Shown: positions 39,040-57,692 of the stretch, in pieces
How positions within the stretch are numbered: the stretch's first letter is position 1
How the letters are laid out: each line of letters starts with the position of its first letter
Origin: Morinoia aosen
Taxonomy: Eukaryota; Arthropoda; Malacostraca; Amphipoda; Talitridae
Assembly (NCBI GenBank): GCA_030386875.1
Contig: CM059559.1
Span: forward strand, 68,586,392-68,650,391
Reading direction: 5' to 3'
Length of the DNA stretch: 64,000 bases
The notes under the pieces: model-generated
The model's database searches: none
Seen by the model: only the letters and a program-made list of their open reading frames with translations
What the model was told of the DNA's origin: nothing
Made by a program: the position numbers and the translations under genes

Positions 39040-39182
39040 AATCTAATGATGAATTTGAATTAGTTTGTCATAATTTTCAACTTAACAAAATCATTTCAGT
39101 TCATCATGTGTTTAAGTACCTAGTAATAAAATCACTCATATCTTCTTATCAAAACCAGGGTTGCGGAGTCGGTGGAATAAAT

Positions 39183-39420
39183 TTGCGACTCCGACTCCGA
39201 CTCCGACTCCACCTTTCCAGAATTTGGCGACTCCGACTCCGACTCCGACTCCACCTTTTCAGAATTTGGCGACTCCGACTCCGACTCCGACTCCACCTTT
39301 TCAGAATTTGTCGACTCCGACTCCGACTCCGACTCCACCTTTTCAGAATTTGGCGACTCCGACTCCGACTCCATTTCTCCAGAATTTGGCGACTCCAACA
39401 CCGACTCCGCCTATTCACAA
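39183..39420. repeat. Subterminal array of ~36-bp units with GACTCC triplets, left end
   Basis: About six units, most being three GACTCC hexamers followed by an 18-bp spacer (ACCTTTTCAGAATTTGGC), the last ones eroded. The array gives spurious Leu/Arg, Thr/Pro and Ser/Glu repeat frames. Confidence 0.95.
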
Positions 39421-40135
39421 TTTTGTGGCTCCAACTTCACCTATTCATAATTTATAAGATGAATATTTTATTTCTTAACTAGTGTACACACACCGTCAAA
39501 AATGACGAGATTCAATACCTTTCTTCAACAAATTTTCGTTTGAGTGGAGTTTCCATGCTTTCAGCTTTTTCCAAAGGTAACTTAATTTTCTTATAAGAGT
39601 AAGTAATAAACACTCAGAACACAGCATTTTTGAGCCGCAAGAGAAGTAGTTATAGCCATTCGTGTCATATCCAAGATACAGAAATTCAGCATTACTGAAA
39701 GCAACTGCTAACTTGTGTATGTATATTTTAATATGCAATACAGTACATTGCAATACAGTATATTGTAATATACAATACAGCATATTGTAATATGCAATAC
39801 CCCGCCGAACTCGGTATTCACGATACAAACTTGAGTATATAAGGCTATGGATCGCTCTAATTGTGATGAAAGTGACTTATTATAGAGCTATTGCACAACG
39901 AAAATGAGCATTAATTGACCGTGAACTGGAACCAAGACCACCAGTGCAAATTTTTTCCTGTCAATTATTCTTAACAGCGTGACACAAAACGTATAAATAA
40001 ACACACGACAGTCATTCTTAGTAGTAAACGGTTGCAGGTGTTTAAACCTGTGCATATATTCATTATATTCTTTATTATCGAACGACTTTTAAATTGACTA
40101 CAGATTGTAAATAATCAAGATACTAGTGTACATGA

Positions 40136-40305
40136 TTGGTCAAAAATTACGGGATCCAATGGTATCGTTTTAAAAAAATCTCAAGATAAAATGGCAAACA
40201 AATATATCCATTGTAAAAGTACCCGCGATTAAAATACAGTATTCTCATACTTGTGACTGGTAAAACTCGTATCACAGATACGGTCATTAAGCATATTTAA
40301 AAACG
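40136..40305 (-). repeat. Dispersed repeat R3, copy in hAT-like element
   Basis: Reverse-orientation match: ACCCGCGATTAAAATA, CTCGTATCACAGATACGGTC and ATTAAGCAT are complementary to the R3 core. Confidence 0.55.
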
Positions 40306-40557
40306 TCACAAACGCACACAACAACCAAGAAAATTCTATAACATAATACCTATCTGAATTGTAATTTAAATTATTGTTCGCAAGAGGTTTTTAGAAAATT
40401 TGCCATACCTTTTAAGCATTTAAATGCCTTTGAAATTTAAATGCGATGAGCCGCATTTTCTTGACAGTTGATTCGATTTTCACGCAATGGTTTTTACTTA
40501 TAAACATAAGTGAGCAGATGCCTGGTTTTTCATATTTCGATGGTATTTATGATACTG

Positions 40558-41570
40558 AGTTTGGAGACTGGTTACAGAGTTTGGTAGAGTGTGCGAAAGG
40601 CGGAAATTGAGGGTAAATGTGAATAAAAGTAAGGTGATGAGATGTTCAAGAGGTGGAGCGTTTGGAACTTTGGATGTGAGGTTGAATGTGGAAGTTTTAG
40701 AGGAGGTAGAGCATTTTAGGTACCTCAGGTCGGATGTGACTGTTAAGGATAGTATGGAAGTAGAAGTGAAGCATCGAGTGAGTGAAGGTTGTAAGACATT
40801 GGGTGCAATGAGGAAAGTTTTTGAATGCAGGAGTTTGAGTATGAATGTTAAGAGGGGACTGTATGAAAGTTTGATTGTGCCAGTTTTGTTGTATGGAGCA
40901 GAGTCCTGGGGGTTGAGAGCAGCTGAGAGGAGGAAGTTGGATGTGTTTGAGATGAATTTTTTGAGGAGCATGTATGGAGTAACTAGAAGAGATAGGATCA
41001 GGAATGAGTTGGTTAGGGGGCAGACGGGTGTTATCAAAAAGTTGAGCAGGCGAGGGGATGAAAGAGTGCTTGGATGGTTTGGGCATGTTGAAAGAATGAA
41101 TGTTGAGCGGCTGGTGAAAAAGATATATATATATGTCGGAAGTGAGTGGTCTTCGAGCGCGAGGTAGACCACGGATGAGTTGGATGGATGGGGTGAGACG
41201 TGCTTTGTATGAGAGGGGTCTGACTGTGGACGTGGCGGGAGGGATGGCTGCGGACAGAAGTGAGTGGGGGCAGTGTATAAGGAGGTAATTTTATTTTTGA
41301 CGCGTTACTGGAAGCTTCCCGCGTGTGATGGGGTTGACCTGTCATGTGCGGAGGGAGGGGCTGCACTCAATGAAGCGGTCGGGGTAAACCAGCTGTGGCT
41401 GTCGGGCCTGACTGTGGGAGGTGGTTGTGCTGGGCTGCTGCTGATCCTGGCAGTTCAGGTGCGGCCAGTGCTGCCTCTCTCGCCTCCTAGTGACTAAGTG
41501 TGGGGATTGTGGCCTGCTGTCGGCTACCCGCCCATAGGGAGGATAAGCCCGGTATATGTATGTATGTATG
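40558..41570 (+). mobile_element. 5'-truncated non-LTR retrotransposon with 14-bp target duplication
   Basis: TATTTATGATACTG is present identically at 40544-40557 and 41571-41584. Between them lie the C-terminal end of a reverse-transcriptase ORF, a ~270-bp 3' UTR and a terminal (TATG)n run at about 41555-41570. 5' truncation, a 3' simple repeat and the duplication together show target-primed reverse transcription. The short tetranucleotide tail is common in RTE-like clades, but the clade is not settled. Confidence 0.9.
40589..41287 (+). pseudogene. LINE reverse transcriptase C-terminal region
   Basis: The 40589-41167 frame encodes the thumb and post-RT region seen in RTE/Jockey-type LINEs: LRVNVNKSKVM, a VEHFRYLRSD strand, then ESLIVPVLLYGAESW and LGWFGHVERM. 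A TA dinucleotide run at 41122-41134 shifts the frame. The true C-terminus continues in another frame as RARGRPRMSWMDGVRRALYE and ends SEWGQCIRR at the TAA near 41287. The catalytic RT motifs and endonuclease are absent because of 5' truncation. Confidence 0.85.
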
Positions 41571-41674
41571 TATTTATGATACTGTCCAAGCAAGCAGATT
41601 CCCATTGTAATGAGATGGGGGAAATTACGCACGAGAACATATACTTATCATTGACGGACACCTGGTTTTTTATT

Positions 41675-42454
41675 ATATCGGGTGTCCTGTAAAAATGTCC
41701 CCGATTTTTGATTAATTATATCTCAGCTTTAAATTAACATATTTGAATTGCCTTTGTTCACAATGTAGTAAATTTTGTTTCCTTTTCGAATAATTTATGT
41801 TATTGAAAATCGGTTGAATAACCACTTTATAATGTCCAATTTACTGAAAGGAGTAGAAAAATTAATTGTTCAAATGAAAAGTTTTTAAAACAATATTGAT
41901 ATTCTTCCTTACTTTGTAGTTTCCATAAAACTGAACACACAAAAATTTTAGGGAGTAACAAATCATTACCTTATATAACGTTTAAACAAATAAAGTAATT
42001 TTAGTATCCAACGACATACCCTCCATTTCTCTCAAGGCAAGTATTACTTCTAGCCACCATTGAGCGAAGAGTTTTACCCATTATTCCACCGTTTTCTATC
42101 GGTCCTTGAAACACTATTATTGAGAACACTTGAAACTTGAAACCTCTCAGAGGGTTTAAATACTTAGTTGTATGTACGATACATCGTTATGAAATTATTC
42201 TCAACAGTAGGTATTGAGGAATGAAGAAGAACACCAGTGTTGTTTTTAAAACTTTCCCTTTGAACAATTTTTCTACCCCTTTCAGTGAATCGATCATCTT
42301 GAAGTTTATTCAACTGATTTTAAAAAACATATATTATTTCAAAAGGAAACAAAATTGAATAAATTGTAAATAAAAGACAATTAAAATATGTTAATTTAAG
42401 CGGATATATTATCAATTAAAAAGTCCGGGACATTTTTGTGGGACACGCAGTATA
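41675..42454. mobile_element. Palindromic mariner-like MITE, copy 2
   Basis: Ends GGGTGTCCTGTAAAAATGTC and, in complement on the right, TGCGTGTCCCACAAAAATGTC-like, beside TA. Both continue into TTTAAATTAACATAT. Arms of some 270 bp are complementary, including TTTTAAAACAATATTGAT-type blocks near 41890 and 42240. Same family as 32739-33694. Inserted within the hAT-like element. Confidence 0.75.
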
Positions 42455-43479
42455 GTATTGATTGTTCTTATACAATAAATGGTCAAGTGTCTCCTTTGAA
42501 CAAATTAATAAATAGGTTTAGCTATTTCGTGAGCGTAATCTCTCCTATGTTAGTACAATGAAGTTTTAGGATTTAAAACTTAAGAGCAATTGGTCGAACA
42601 TTTATTTCAAATACAGAAGAACTTCAAGGGAACAACAGCAAGTCGTTTCCCGAGATGCGCAAAAAGAGAAACTGTACCCAAGTTAGGCGGATCTTGAGGA
42701 TTCCAACAGTACGCACAGGAGCGTCCTCTGTGAAATTTTTATTATTGAATTCCTTTAAAATAGAGACCGAAAATCTTCTTTAACGTAAGGTTAGTTTTTA
42801 AAACGATACTCGCTAAAAATAGAAGACACCCAATGGACGCAGCCGGTCATCAGCACGGTACTCCGGTAGGAAATTTTAGAGGCGTTCTGAGTAGAGAGAT
42901 ACCGAGTTTTAAGATGTCCGGTCGCCGACTAGGTGAATATCGTATCTTATTGTAAGATTACATATAGCACTAAGATTTTAACAATTAATTGACAATTAAT
43001 TACCTTGAAGAGTAAGTGCCTATTCAAGAGGCTGCAAAAGCCGGGTCGAGGAGTTCAAGTCGCAGAAAGAGACTGCTTTTTACGCAATAGAAATAAGTTA
43101 GAGGTACCAGACCCACTTTTATTAAAAGGACGACATGCTGCCCAAGCAGAGCAAGCTCAAAGATAATTTAATGAGTGAACGCCAAAGCGTCACAAGTAAT
43201 GTTAATTAAAGCTATTTAAGGTTAATGCAGTCTGCTAGAAGCGCAAACATGCTTATTTATAGAAAGTTAAATTTAAACACAAAAACCGGAAAAAAAGAAG
43301 CTGCAAAACAAAAAACAACGAACAAAATGATCTAATTTCATCAGTTTCAAATTCTTGTCTGTGAACTAAGAGAGGCCAACTGAAGAAAACTTTTTCTTCC
43401 ACAAAGCCGCCATCAGAAATACGGAAAATATACAACAGGAAATTTCATTGAACAAACAAAATTGGCTGTTCGTCTTTGT
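42455..43479. other. Interior of hAT-like element, no gene recognised
   Basis: No transposase motif found in any frame by eye. This may be original hAT-like sequence or an old unrecognised insertion. Confidence 0.4.
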
Positions 43480-43676
43480 TGGTTGATCTGTCTCCCTTTC
43501 ACGCTCTTAGAGATACTTAACTACTGTACCTGTGATGCGAGTTTCACCAGTGCACAAGTATTAGAATATTTTAATCGCGGGTGCTATTAGGATGAAAATA
43601 TTTCTTTATGGTCCACATCTGGAAGATTTCTATACAGACAATATCGAATCCCGTCATTTGACGAGTCGTGTACACA
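43480..43676 (+). repeat. Dispersed repeat R3, copy in hAT-like element
   Basis: CTGTCTCCCTTTCACGCTCT, TGTGATGCGAGTTTCACCAG, ATCGCGGGTGCTATTAGGATG blocks (listed separately) and a GTGTACAC end. A mariner end follows ~12 bp later. Confidence 0.6.
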
Positions 43677-43686
43677 ATTATGTAGA

Positions 43687-44318
43687 CTGAGTGTTTCAGA
43701 ACACGAGGTACAAAATTGCACATCAAGTAGAAAATGGCCAAATAAACACTTTTTGTCCTATGAAATTTTCACCCAAAAAAATCGGGGTTGGGAGGCATTA
43801 GGTGTTTATTGTTTTTAAGGTTTAAATTTAATGGCACAATTACTCGCGGTATTGATTCTGAATTTACTTTACAAAAACTGTTCAAAATGTGTTCCACCTA
43901 CATCTATGCACTTTTCGAATGTTAGCCTTAACGGCTGCCGAATATTAGGAAACACGTCTGGCATTAAGGTATCTCACCTGCAGCCACTGCAATTCTGGCC
44001 ACAAGATCTTCCTCAGACCCAATGGGTGTAGCATAAACAAGGCTCTTCACGTGTCCCCAAAAATTGAAATAGAGTGGAGTCATGTCAGGAGATATAGGAG
44101 GTCATGCAACTAGCACATTTCGCCCGATCAACGTAAATTCAAAATAAATAGTGCGAGTAGTTTATTCATTAAATTTCACCCTTTAAAACAATAAACTGCT
44201 AATGTCTCAATGTCTCTTTCTTCGGAAAATTTTATAGAAGAAAAAGTTTTCATTTGTACATTTTCTACTTGGTGTGCAATTTTTTGCCTCTCATTCTGAA
44301 TCTGAAACACCCTGTATA
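43687..44318 (-). mobile_element. Mariner-type element, degenerate
   Basis: The right end reads inward TACAGGGTGTTTCAGATTC and the left end ACTGAGTGTTTCAGAACAC. Both continue with AAATTGCACA and AAGTAGAAAATG, giving ~100-bp inverted repeats. A transposase C-terminal fragment lies inside on the minus strand. Confidence 0.75.
43860..44110 (-). pseudogene. Mariner-type transposase C-terminal fragment
   Basis: The minus-strand translation includes SPDMTPLYFNFWGHVKSLVY, holding the last catalytic Asp of the DDE/D domain, and then EEDLVARIAVAAGEI. The following helix is broken by stops. It belongs to the same group as the remnant at 8690-9540. The N-terminal two thirds are missing. Confidence 0.75.
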
Positions 44319-45912
44319 TTACTGACAAGTGTTTTCTGAGTAGGTAATGTAGGCATTGTCTACACTGAGAAGCATAGATATGCATCAACAGTTTTTTATT
44401 TCTAAGTATGCACTAATTCAGTGAAATTATAGTAGTTAATTCAATGACTATGCCTCAAATCCCCAAAATAATGATATACGTGTAGATAAGGTAGGTAAGA
44501 TTTGCACACTGCCTTTTCTTCTTTGTATCTACACTATGCAGGGTAACAATGCAGAAAAAGTGTCATATTATTGCTCAACACTATGTTACATTTCGGCTAT
44601 AATAAGCAAAAGTTGTTCTGCTTTCATTGCAGGGGCCTGACGTTTTCGGAAAGTTTTTTTTACGAATAAAAGTCACTTCTAGCTTCTTTGCGTGTATTAT
44701 GATACTATCTCTTATTTTCGTCTAACTTTTTACTTTGCATTGGACACTTTGTTATTTTAATAAACGCCCAGGTTCTTCTCATTTCGTGTTTTTTGGAGCA
44801 ATTTGAAACGTTTCCAGCAAGAGAATTTGTACTATCGCATAAACGCAAAAACCATTGCAGCTGAGATAGTGCATTGTTTTCAGTTACAATGTGTGTGTGA
44901 CTGTAAGTGAAGTTTTTGCTGGTGTGTGTAATTATTTTCATTGCAGCTCGTTTACATCGTATTTTTATTTTTTTCAAGTGTCTCAATGCCGATATAGATA
45001 ACCTTACAACATTTCCAAATCTTCCCTAACAAGAAGTAATTAATTACATAATGCTACAAAACAAATACTATTTCAGTTTTTTAAAATGTATCAACATAAT
45101 TATAAAATTCTGCATTTCAGCGTATACTAGCTTAGAAACTGGGGAGTGATACGAAGATAAAAATTAAACATGATGATGATATAGTGAAAAACAATATAAC
45201 TCTGAAAGAACCAAATTACATTCAAGGAATAACTTGAGAAATGAGAAGAAATTTTTATTATTAATACATGTTAACTTGACTTAAAAACACGGAAGCCATA
45301 TCAATTTTGATAACATGACTTGAAAACTAGAAGTCTTTGTGCACTAGACCATAGCTTCAGGTTTCGGCAAAGACTACTCATTGGCAATGAATCATAACCA
45401 AAAGACTAAAAATGTTTATGATCATTATCAATCAATGCATCATTTTGAGCATGCAGAGTTACCACTCTTTATGTGAGTACAATGTATTGCATCAGCTGAA
45501 ATGTTCTACAAGTAACTTGCAACACATGTAATACTATTTTCCAGTTCCTATGTATTAATTGAAGGAAAAATGAACAAAACAGAAATATACAGAATGAATT
45601 TGCGATGCTTTAAATTACTAATTCCTGCTTTTAACTACAAAATATACATTAATGCTGGGTACAAAAATTATATTTCGCACTCGTAGGTTTCACATATATA
45701 TCTGTGCAAACCCTCAACGACTAGATAAGATGACGGTATTAGGTGATAGGAATAAATACGCTGTTTCAAACTTAGAACAAAACAATCAACGAAAACATTA
45801 CGTATTTTTTAGATTTTTCAGCAGAGCATTCTAACTCTGTTTTGGTTTACTTCTAGTTTTAAAGAATTATAAATAATTTTTAGCAAAAATTAGAATCGAA
45901 GACACCAAAAAA
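44319..45912. other. Interior of hAT-like element, no gene recognised
   Basis: The 93-codon minus-strand frame 44705-44986 is basic but unrecognised and lacks hAT dimerisation motifs. Confidence 0.4.
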
Positions 45913-46146
45913 TAGCGACTCCAACCACGATTCTACCACATCCGAATGAACGACTCCGACTCCGACTCCGACTCCACCACATTCGGAAAAGCGACTCCGA
46001 CTCCGACTCCGACTCCATCACACTGCAGAGTAGCGACTCCGACTCCGACTCCGACTCCACCACACTTTAGAGAAGCGACTCCGACTCCGACTCCGACTCC
46101 ACCCTAAAACATCCGACTCCGGCGACTCCGACTCCCGACTCCGACT
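45913..46146. repeat. Subterminal array of ~36-bp units with GACTCC triplets, right end
   Basis: Units of three or four GACTCC hexamers plus an 18-bp spacer (for example ACCACACTTTAGAGAAGC). The array has the same strand orientation as the left one, although the terminal repeats are inverted. Confidence 0.95.
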
Positions 46147-46599
46147 CCGACTCCGCAACCCTGATCAAAACAATGTCAAATTTAAAAAAAAATTCTCTAA
46201 CTCTGTGGTCTATAAAAAGCAACATTCCAATGCACAAACATGTTCAGGCTAAAATTATACAGAAAATTTTTTTCAGTCATATTGATAAAATGCAAATCTA
46301 ATACCCAAAGCTAAATCAGACAAAGTATTGTTGGAAATGACAGCACAAGAAAATGACCTGAAACTTAATTTGTACCACAGCAATATTTACTACTATTATA
46401 ATATTGGATAACAGTATCAACATATTTTTAGTATTAACTAGTTTCACTTAAAAAATATCAAGTATATTTTAAAACAGATCAAAGTGAATTTAGAAAAGCT
46501 AACATTTCTATAATTGTTTACCTTTATTTTCCTATAGCTATGTACTTCACCTGTTATAAATTAAAGTTGACCTTTCTTATATCAAAATAGGGTGCTTTA

Positions 46600-47680
46600 A
46601 ATTGAAGTTGAGGTTTTTTAAATTGAACTTCAGCGTTTTTAAATAGATCTTGATGTTTTTTTAAAATTGAACTTGACATTTTTTAAATAACCTGAGCATT
46701 CTTAAATCAAACATGAGCATTTTTAAATCAAACATGAGCATTTTTAAATTGAACTTGAGCATTTTTAAATTGAACTTGAGGTTTTTCAAATTGAACTTGA
46801 GATTTTTCAAATTGAACTTCAGGTTTTTCAAATTGAACTGGAGGTTTTTCAAATTTAACTCGAGGTTTTTCAAATTTAACTCGAGGTTTTTCAAATTTAA
46901 CTCGAGGTTTTTCAAATTTAACTCGAGGTTTTTCAAATTGAACTTGAGGTTTTTTAAATTGAACTTGAGGTTTTTAAAATTGAATTTAGGATTTTCAAAT
47001 TGAACTTAGGATTTTCAAATGGAACTTAGGGTTTTCAAATTAAACTTTGGGTTTTCAAATTGAACGTTAGGTTTTTGAAATTAAATGTGACCTAGTTATA
47101 AAGCCTGAGCTTTTTTAAATGAGACCCGAACTTTTTTAAATGAGACCCGAGCTTTTCTAGATGAGACCCGAGCTTTTCTAGATGAGACCCGAGCTTTTCT
47201 AGATGAGACCCGAGCTTTTCTAGATGAGACCCGAGCTTTTCTAGATGAGTCCCGAGCTTTTCTAGATGAGTCCCGAGCTTTTCTAGATGAGTCCCGAGCT
47301 TTTCTAGATGAGTCCCGAGCTTTTCTAGATGAGACCCGAACTTTTCTAGATGAGACCCGAGCTTTTCTAGATGAGACCCGAGCTTTTCTAGATGAGACCC
47401 GAGCTTTTCTAGATGAGACTCGAGCTTTTCTAGATGAGACCCGAGCTTTTCTAGATGAGACCCGAGCTTTTCTAGATGAGACCCGAGCTTTTCTAGATGA
47501 GACCCGAGCTTTTCTAGATGAGACCCGAGCTTTTCTAGATGAGACCCGAGCTTTTCTAGATGAGACTCGACCTTTTTCTAAATGAGACCCGACCTTTTTT
47601 TGAATGAGACCCTGAGGTTTTTAAATGAGACCCCGAGCTACTTGAAATGAGACCCGAGCTTCTTGAAATGGAAATTGAGT
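46600..47680. repeat. Two adjoining 21-bp minisatellites
   Basis: 46600-47090 carries about 22 units of the type AGGTTTTTCAAATTGAACTTG. 47105-47660 carries more than 20 units of the type AGCTTTTCTAGATGAGACCCG, several of them identical. Outer units are degenerate and central ones homogeneous, as expected from unequal exchange. The arrays produce false ORFs such as 46661-46936 and 46713-47003. Confidence 0.95.
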
Positions 47681-56599: not shown

Positions 56600-57692
56600 C
56601 AAGAATTTGCAAGAATTTAACCAAGAATTAGTTGCCTCAGATTTTCGAGCATTACGTAGAAATCATTGAGACTTTGAAAATCCGAAATGCTTACCCTGAT
56701 CAATTTCAAAGGTTTACGCCTGCTGATTCGAGCTTTAGTGCCAAACCTAAAGCTGGCTTGTTAAGTCCCCCAAGCAGGTGTTCGCTAATGTTTCTGTCGC
56801 GGCACCTGAACGTAAAACCTGTAAATTCTGCTCCAGCCTCAGTCACAGCATGTTGCATTGTCATGCTTATCTTACCTTGAAAGCTAGGACTGATCGTTGT
56901 ACCGAGCTAGGATTGCGTGCCAAATGTACGAGCTCCAAGGATAGCGCCGGTAGATGCAATGCACGCCTGGACTATGAATGTAAATTCTGTAAATTTAAAA
57001 ACCATGTCTCTGCTTTATGTAGAAAGGGGAAACATTTAGAATCCCAGTCACGCGTGGGTTTGAACTCTTCCACTAATCAGAAGTCTGTTTATGTTCTTCC
57101 TACTATCACCTTGCCAGTAGGTAAAGGGAAAAGTCAAACAAAAGTTAGGTTTCTTATTGACTCGGGTTCCCAACGTTCATACGTTGCTGGTACTGTCATT
57201 AGTCGACTTAGATGCTCAGGGTTGGCTCCAACCAGTTCCTACCTGATGAACTCCCTCCTTGAGAAGGGATTTAAATCATTTGACGAGACAAGACTTGATA
57301 TTGATTTACTTGACAATGCTAAAAACCTAGAAATTTCTGTTCTGGTTGACAACAATTTCAAAATGTCACTTAATGTTTGCCTCTCAAGCGAAGCGGTAAC
57401 TAACCTACAATCTCGCTTCGAACTTGCAGATTCCTCGTTATCTCGAGACACCGACACGATAACGTTGGGTGGAATACTCGAGGTAGATATCCTGCAGTGT
57501 TTATCTTCATTTGAGTTAATTACCTGCATGAACAGCACGGCCTTCCGTTTGGGTTCGAAAATAGTCCCAGGGGGCAATGAAGAACATTTCCTCGAGAAAA
57601 GCCAGGTGCCGTTGTTGTACAAATCCTTGAATTCTTCAGATGTAAATCTTGCGTGTGTTAACTTCGTTCTTGACCCACAGCAGTCAACCTGA
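56600..57692 (+). pseudogene. BEL/Pao gag zinc knuckles and aspartic protease
   Basis: The 304-codon frame at 56778-57692 is the longest intact piece. Two perfect CX2CX4HX4C knuckles occupy residues 15-28 and 68-81, and the protease active site LIDSGSQRSYV starts near residue 127. The C-terminal half is the A17-type protease body, ending with FVLDPQQST. Residues upstream, at 56632 in another frame, are the capsid tail. Catalytic Asp-Ser-Gly is intact, but the frame is cut off from gag and RT. Confidence 0.85.

Follow-up and report, generated by a model that had tools for sequence, protein, structure and literature searches.

A probable non-autonomous hAT family of large elements with subterminal GACTCC arrays in the amphipod Morinoia aosen

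The element described here lies at positions 39156-46163 (7008 bp) of a 64,000-nucleotide stretch of Morinoia aosen DNA, referred to below as the window (assembly GCA_030386875.1, contig CM059559.1, positions 68,586,392 to 68,650,391). Its closest described counterparts are the Ds2 elements of maize, the housefly transposon Hermes, and the hAT miniature inverted-repeat transposable elements (MITEs), which are typically under about 1 kb. Ds2 elements have the ends of Ac and unrelated filler inside, and retrotransposon insertions lengthen some copies. Subterminal AAACGG hexamers are bound by the Ac transposase, and the B73 genome holds 39 Ds2 elements, about 1.4 kb long on average, among a total of 903 Ds-related elements, according to the sections of PMC3260210 that treat them. 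Hermes is a hAT element of ~3 kb that encodes its own transposase. The relevant sections of PMC10368747 describe imperfect 17-bp inverted repeats, subterminal repeats, unlike left and right ends, and a target preference of nTnnnnAn. The BED domains bind the subterminal repeats through the motif AAG(T/C), and end asymmetry matters for activity (PMC10368747, same sections).

The first-pass annotation of the window had proposed a hAT-like element whose 17-bp inverted ends are perfect and whose 8-bp duplication is exact, and both were found again where they had been placed (Table 1). Short terminal inverted repeats (TIRs) that begin with CA are typical of hAT elements, and the sequence CAGGGTTGCGGAGTCGG is present at both ends. 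There were no other matches to it in the window at ≤3 mismatches (shuffles gave a mean of 0.01). The 17-bp end was then searched for in the 1.99-Gb assembly (29 contigs), which generated 4944 matches at ≤1 mismatch, 2468 of them forward and 2476 reverse. The reversed pattern, used as a control, generated 0 forward matches and 1 reverse match. Pairing was based on 100 listed end matches, all mismatch-free, from contig C1 between 0.4 and 49.6 Mb. 84/100 listed ends make 42 facing pairs less than 20 kb apart, while about 1 pair was expected by chance. By size, 1 pair measures 4.8 kb, 18 measure 5.7-6.1 kb, 2 measure 6.6-6.7 kb, 12 measure 6.9-7.03 kb, and 9 measure 7.2-15.1 kb. If C1 is typical, the genome contains roughly 2000 paired elements. 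The annotation had allowed that the two ends might never co-occur, or that each GACTCC array might be an independent shorter element. Neither is the case: both ends occur together in each of the 42 facing pairs, and the arrays form the termini of a single ~6-kb element.

Twenty of the pairs were fetched with their flanks, and the 8-bp flanks are identical in 19/20 of them as well as in the window copy. The alignment that defines type A comprises 19 of the 20 fetched copies plus the window copy. The remaining copy, L033, was excluded as a distinct type B. Pairwise identity within type A ranges from 74.7% to 99.9%. Copies L043, L046 and L049 lie at different sites and are separated by 15-21 differences over about 5975 positions (0.25-0.35%), which shows that the family spread recently. 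L032 and L042, also at different sites and both carrying the insert described below, have 45 differences over 7005 positions. Part of the interior is deleted in L039 and inverted in L050. The existence of such recent copies suggests that the cognate enzyme was recently active. The type B form with the L033 insert was also considered as a mobile element since a second copy is 99.8% identical, but this candidate was dropped when its flanks indicated a segmental duplication.

Target sites were compared using 19 independent duplications, the window copy and 18 others, with L032 and L047 dropped. T occupies position 2 in 15/19 sites (P 3e-5), A occupies position 7 in 13/19 (P 7e-4), and both occur together in 10/19 (P 3e-6), all by binomial tests on the base composition of the window. 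The Buster group of hAT elements prefers nnnTAnnn, a pattern that was not recovered here (TA at positions 4-5 in 1/19 sites). The observed preference resembles the nTnnnnAn of Hermes and is of the Ac/Hermes type. Together the ends, the 8-bp duplications and the target preference bear out the hAT-like assignment.

The subterminal arrays are a constant feature of the family. In each of 21 copies (20 fetched and the window copy) the outer 300 bp contain 7-23 GACTCC hexamers at the left end and 14-23 at the right, while the interior contains 0-2 on either strand. In the window copy, with arrays at both ends, GACTCCGACTCC is matched 29 times at ≤1 mismatch, where 0.04 matches would be expected. All array hexamers are on one strand, and the sole GGAGTC in the outer 300 bp is the one at the left, in the place of the TIR. 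The left array is flipped relative to its TIR and the right array is not. Block spacing is mostly in multiples of 6 (30, 36, 42, 48), and spacings of 13, 41 and 47 recur on the right. A variant end with its array in the opposite orientation, type C, was seen at L057:30-347, with one other match of >90% identity listed (C4:70880078).

In these respects the family is like the Ds2/Ds elements of maize (hAT, Ac group) as portrayed in the cited sections: non-autonomous, with short inverted ends, subterminal hexamers and filler, and with some copies lengthened by an insert. The hexamers are present, as is a presumably unrelated filler. The element probably works like Ds2. Unlike Ds2, 18/42 listed pairs measure 5.7-6.1 kb, the genome holds 4944 ends, and an insert resembling a long interspersed nuclear element (LINE) is found in 13/42 listed pairs, L040 counted. 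Hermes, as described above, shares the 17-bp inverted repeats (perfect here), the subterminal repeats, the nTnnnnAn target and the unlike ends. It differs in that the predicted motif here is GACTCC, which forms large arrays on the same strand at the two ends, and in that the elements measure 6-7 kb and have no recognisable transposase. Finally, hAT ends without coding capacity are also found in hAT MITEs such as Drosophila mar, as portrayed in part of PMC3517528. MITEs are short, whereas the smallest of the 42 listed pairs is 4.8 kb.

Aligning the copies yields a type A founder of about 6.0 kb, the derivation that the annotation had proposed. The annotation held that much of the length consists of later insertions, and this was not borne out. 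The two decayed palindromes and the pair of inverted repeat arms (Table 1) have whole or partial counterparts in the 19 fetched type A copies, among the matches listed, and so belong to the founder. The 606-bp palindrome, presumably a remnant of Tc1/mariner type (it has no database match), is missing from the type B copy L033 and must have entered the lineage before type A spread. Thus the MITE-like and mariner-like pieces are not later than the founder, but the LINE-like piece is. It measures ~1.0 kb, is bordered by a 15-bp duplication, GTATTTATGATACTG, and sits at the identical base in the window copy, L032, L040 and L042. The site is filled in these 4/20 aligned type A copies and empty in 16/20 (L047 duplicates L046). 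Genome-wide, the filled junction was found 379 times and the empty junction 1084 times at ≤3 mismatches, with controls at 0. Of 14 filled junctions listed on C1, 12 are inside a listed pair and the other 2 lie no more than 7 kb from a listed single end. In a tree built with L047 dropped and with the terminal arrays and the insert masked, the four LINE-bearing copies form one clade with support of 1.0. Because they share both site and clade, the window copy arrived with the insert already inside. Their 8-bp flanks differ among themselves, so the insert-bearing form has transposed. Apart from this LINE-like piece, no part of the element postdates the 6-kb founder. The piece has no Pfam or PDB match, and the LINE label is that of the first-pass annotation. 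Nothing pointing to the R3 element named there was seen within the element, though no R3-specific test was made.

The statement that no hAT transposase is visible was confirmed by Pfam scans. None of the ten open reading frames (ORFs) of the window copy matched a Pfam family above the cut-off or contained a hAT domain. L037, a 6.0-kb copy, has 74 ORFs of ≥40 codons. All but 15, which are located in or enter the end arrays or flanks, were scanned, and these 59 generated no family above the cut-off and no transposase. The only match at E ≤0.01 was one ORF (E 0.007) to an unrelated family, and Rfam gave no match at E ≤1. Lacking a recognisable hAT-domain transposase, the element is at most a non-autonomous member.

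A partner that encodes the transposase was sought with profiles of hAT domains. Using PF05699, 150 of 2753 candidates were scored; PF14372 gave 4 hits and a profile of one hAT subclass 36 hits of 140. For 42 hAT-domain hits (35 from PF05699 and 7 from the hAT subclass), many with stop codons, 0.7-1.8 kb from the domain start was examined on the downstream side only. Clusters of other hexamers were found there in 15/42, namely GTATCG in 4, ATTCGC in 7 and AACCGC in 4 (e.g. L065, L066, L084). These three hexamers were picked after viewing the sequences; shuffles of single bases gave 0-0.1 of 42. The end architecture thus has parallels among hAT families of the same genome. About 70 of the 150 scored dimerisation-domain hits are on contig C21 (121 Mb), many of them clustered at ~4-6 Mb and 62-83 Mb.

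Several other places were examined for a partner. A rare form of the end, in which C or G follows the 17-bp repeat, occurs at 62 places, and eight stretches that were read contained no partner. At the type C variant end C17:245179 and at nine older ends related to it, no hAT transposase was recognised by eye among the longest ORFs. Nor was a partner contained in the central parts of two unexplained facing pairs, of which one is type A for 593/1101 bases and the other is type B. By eye, no hAT-like ORF is present in the middle portion of L033 that does not align, and the longest ORF there resembles a Penelope-type endonuclease. On contig C5, two adjacent long open frames lie beside a GACTCC-related end (L096:491-1552) and presumably represent a Tc1-like transposase. 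Related end fragments recur on this contig at 52-57 Mb.

We estimate a probability of about 85% that the element is a non-autonomous member of a hAT family, probably of the Ac group, with a passenger interior. The annotation had suggested a non-autonomous founder with GACTCC arrays, and the copies support this, with both ends belonging to one element. The outer ~300 bp of each end, comprising the 17-bp TIR and GACTCC blocks ~42 bp apart, would be recognised by a transposase made elsewhere, presumably a hAT enzyme and probably acting through its zinc-finger BED domains. Such a transposase would cut out the entire 6-7 kb and reinsert it at 8-bp sites tending to nTnnnnAn. The interior would travel as a passenger and consist of old transposon remnants that had become fixed in the ~6-kb founder; one lineage would have gained the LINE-like insert and then carried it along in hundreds of copies. 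The ends change more slowly than the interior. Compared with L037, four mid-age copies diverge by 3.4% and 1.5% in the two outer 250-bp windows and by 4.8-8.9% in interior windows. For four older copies the corresponding values are 4.6% and 3.2% in the outer windows and 7.1-15.7% in the interior.

Several observations count against this assignment. End divergence may be understated, as the tandem repeats align with 12-28% gaps and copies were chosen for perfect 17-bp ends. L032 has perfect inverted repeats, but its flanks agree at 4/8 bases only. T2/A7 is a preference, with one or both bases missing in 9/19 sites. Cut-and-paste elements should give rise to internally deleted copies, and 0/42 facing pairs listed on C1 with perfect ends are smaller than 4.8 kb. 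No autonomous partner was found in the part of the candidates covered; GACTCC occurs twice within 200 bp in 0/42 hAT-domain hits (downstream only, a small part of the candidates), against 0.3 of 42 in shuffles. Lastly, a codon-position test was applied to 11 interior ORFs of L037 (69-91 codons) across eight other copies. In 3/11 (77-91 codons) the excess of third-position over second-position changes was matched by 2-5% of random frames, but none of these signals would survive correction for 11 tests. Mean excess over the 11 ORFs was 0.066 versus 0.000 for single random frames, with a standard deviation of 0.114, and each frame is stop-free in 6-17 of 20 copies. We read this pattern as no good evidence of coding. 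The three ORFs may nonetheless be small coding pieces, or coding relics of older elements contained in the founder.

These ORFs bear on an alternative in which the element is a decayed autonomous copy, a hAT that coded for a transposase until insertions destroyed or replaced the gene. Its size fits an autonomous element, the interior contains remnants of other elements, and the weak coding-like pattern could be read in the same way. However, an interior of ~6.0 kb without recognisable transposase is common to copies that are 0.25-0.35% apart at different sites, and no hAT domain was detected in either set of scanned ORFs. Since near-identical copies share the coding-less interior, the coding-less form is what spread. 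For that form a decayed autonomous copy is largely refuted, and we consider it quite improbable.

Still less probable is that the family belongs to another superfamily with 8-bp duplications, such as the P elements. An 8-bp duplication with ends starting in CA is not unique to hAT, and no transposase with these ends was found among the 42 hAT-domain hits read downstream. The nTnnnnAn preference nevertheless points to hAT, and the end hexamers resemble the clusters beside hAT-domain hits of the same genome. More weakly, the hAT flank L051 contains the 9-bp GCAACCCTG 464 bases in, which would be a candidate end reading CAGGGTTGC.

The least credible alternative, that the family multiplied chiefly through segmental duplication of a few insertions, could draw on two duplicate pairs (L046/L047, and L033 with C1:7020922) but is very unlikely given nineteen independent sites with exact 8-bp duplications among the copies examined, in which long flanks shared by most copies were not seen. 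At least 2 of the 42 pairs are such duplicates, L047 of L046 and C1:7020922 of L033. L046/L047 and L033 with L112/L113 have identical flanks and lie ~1 and 6 Mb apart on C1, representing segmental or assembly duplications.

As a non-autonomous hAT family, this one is unusual in its size, its copy number, its same-strand arrays and the lack of any listed pair below 4.8 kb. Its recent spread and its carriage of the LINE-like insert are also notable. No paper was found that contains either the end sequence or the array sequence. An equally large, high-copy, non-coding hAT family was not found in the literature searched, which leaves most subscription journals outside, and Repbase or Dfam may list it. 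The family is a clear example of a large DNA transposon that has no recognisable gene, reached an estimated two thousand copies and was recently mobile while carrying another element. It is relevant to the question of why non-autonomous transposons usually become shorter, and to the requirements of hAT ends. One idea is that the amplification route yields no internal deletions, or that the transposase needs widely spaced ends; either would favour a ~6-kb non-coding form that freely carries cargo, with the same-strand arrays serving as a signal of end asymmetry for BED domains. We regard this idea as unlikely. With several hAT families bearing different hexamer clusters in one genome, co-evolution of BED domains and end hexamers as matched pairs becomes testable.

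Table 1. Features of the window copy and its flanking duplication (window positions).
Feature	Position	Strand	Remarks
Target-site duplication, left copy, ATCAAAAC, 8 bp	39148-39155	.	
TIR, left, CAGGGTTGCGGAGTCGG	39156-39172	+	4944 genome matches at ≤1 mismatch
Subterminal GACTCC array, left, 42-bp period	39187-39408	+	Orientation opposite to GGAGTC within left TIR
Internal inverted repeat arm, old internal piece	40120-40332	+	Partner 43475-43686; found in other type A copies too
15-bp direct repeats GTATTTATGATACTG bordering LINE-like insert	40543-40557 and 41570-41584		
LINE-like insert ending in ATGT repeats	40558-41569	+	Filled/empty alignment of type A copies and junction counts
787-bp decayed palindrome, MITE-like, part of type A founder	41671-42457	.	
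Partner arm of 40120-40332	43475-43686	-	
606-bp decayed palindrome, in type A copies, not in type B copy L033	43695-44300	.	
Subterminal GACTCC array, right	45917-46154	+	Strand same as left array
TIR, right	46147-46163	-	
Target-site duplication, right copy, ATCAAAAC	46164-46171	.	

Two other features of the window lie outside the element. Positions 46599-47661 hold two minisatellite arrays with a 21-bp unit (23 and 26 copies), which start ~430 bp beyond the right end of the element. Further along, an open frame of 313 codons at 56751-57692 contains a cysteine-rich stretch and a protease-like motif, and is presumably part of a BEL/Pao retrotransposon polyprotein.

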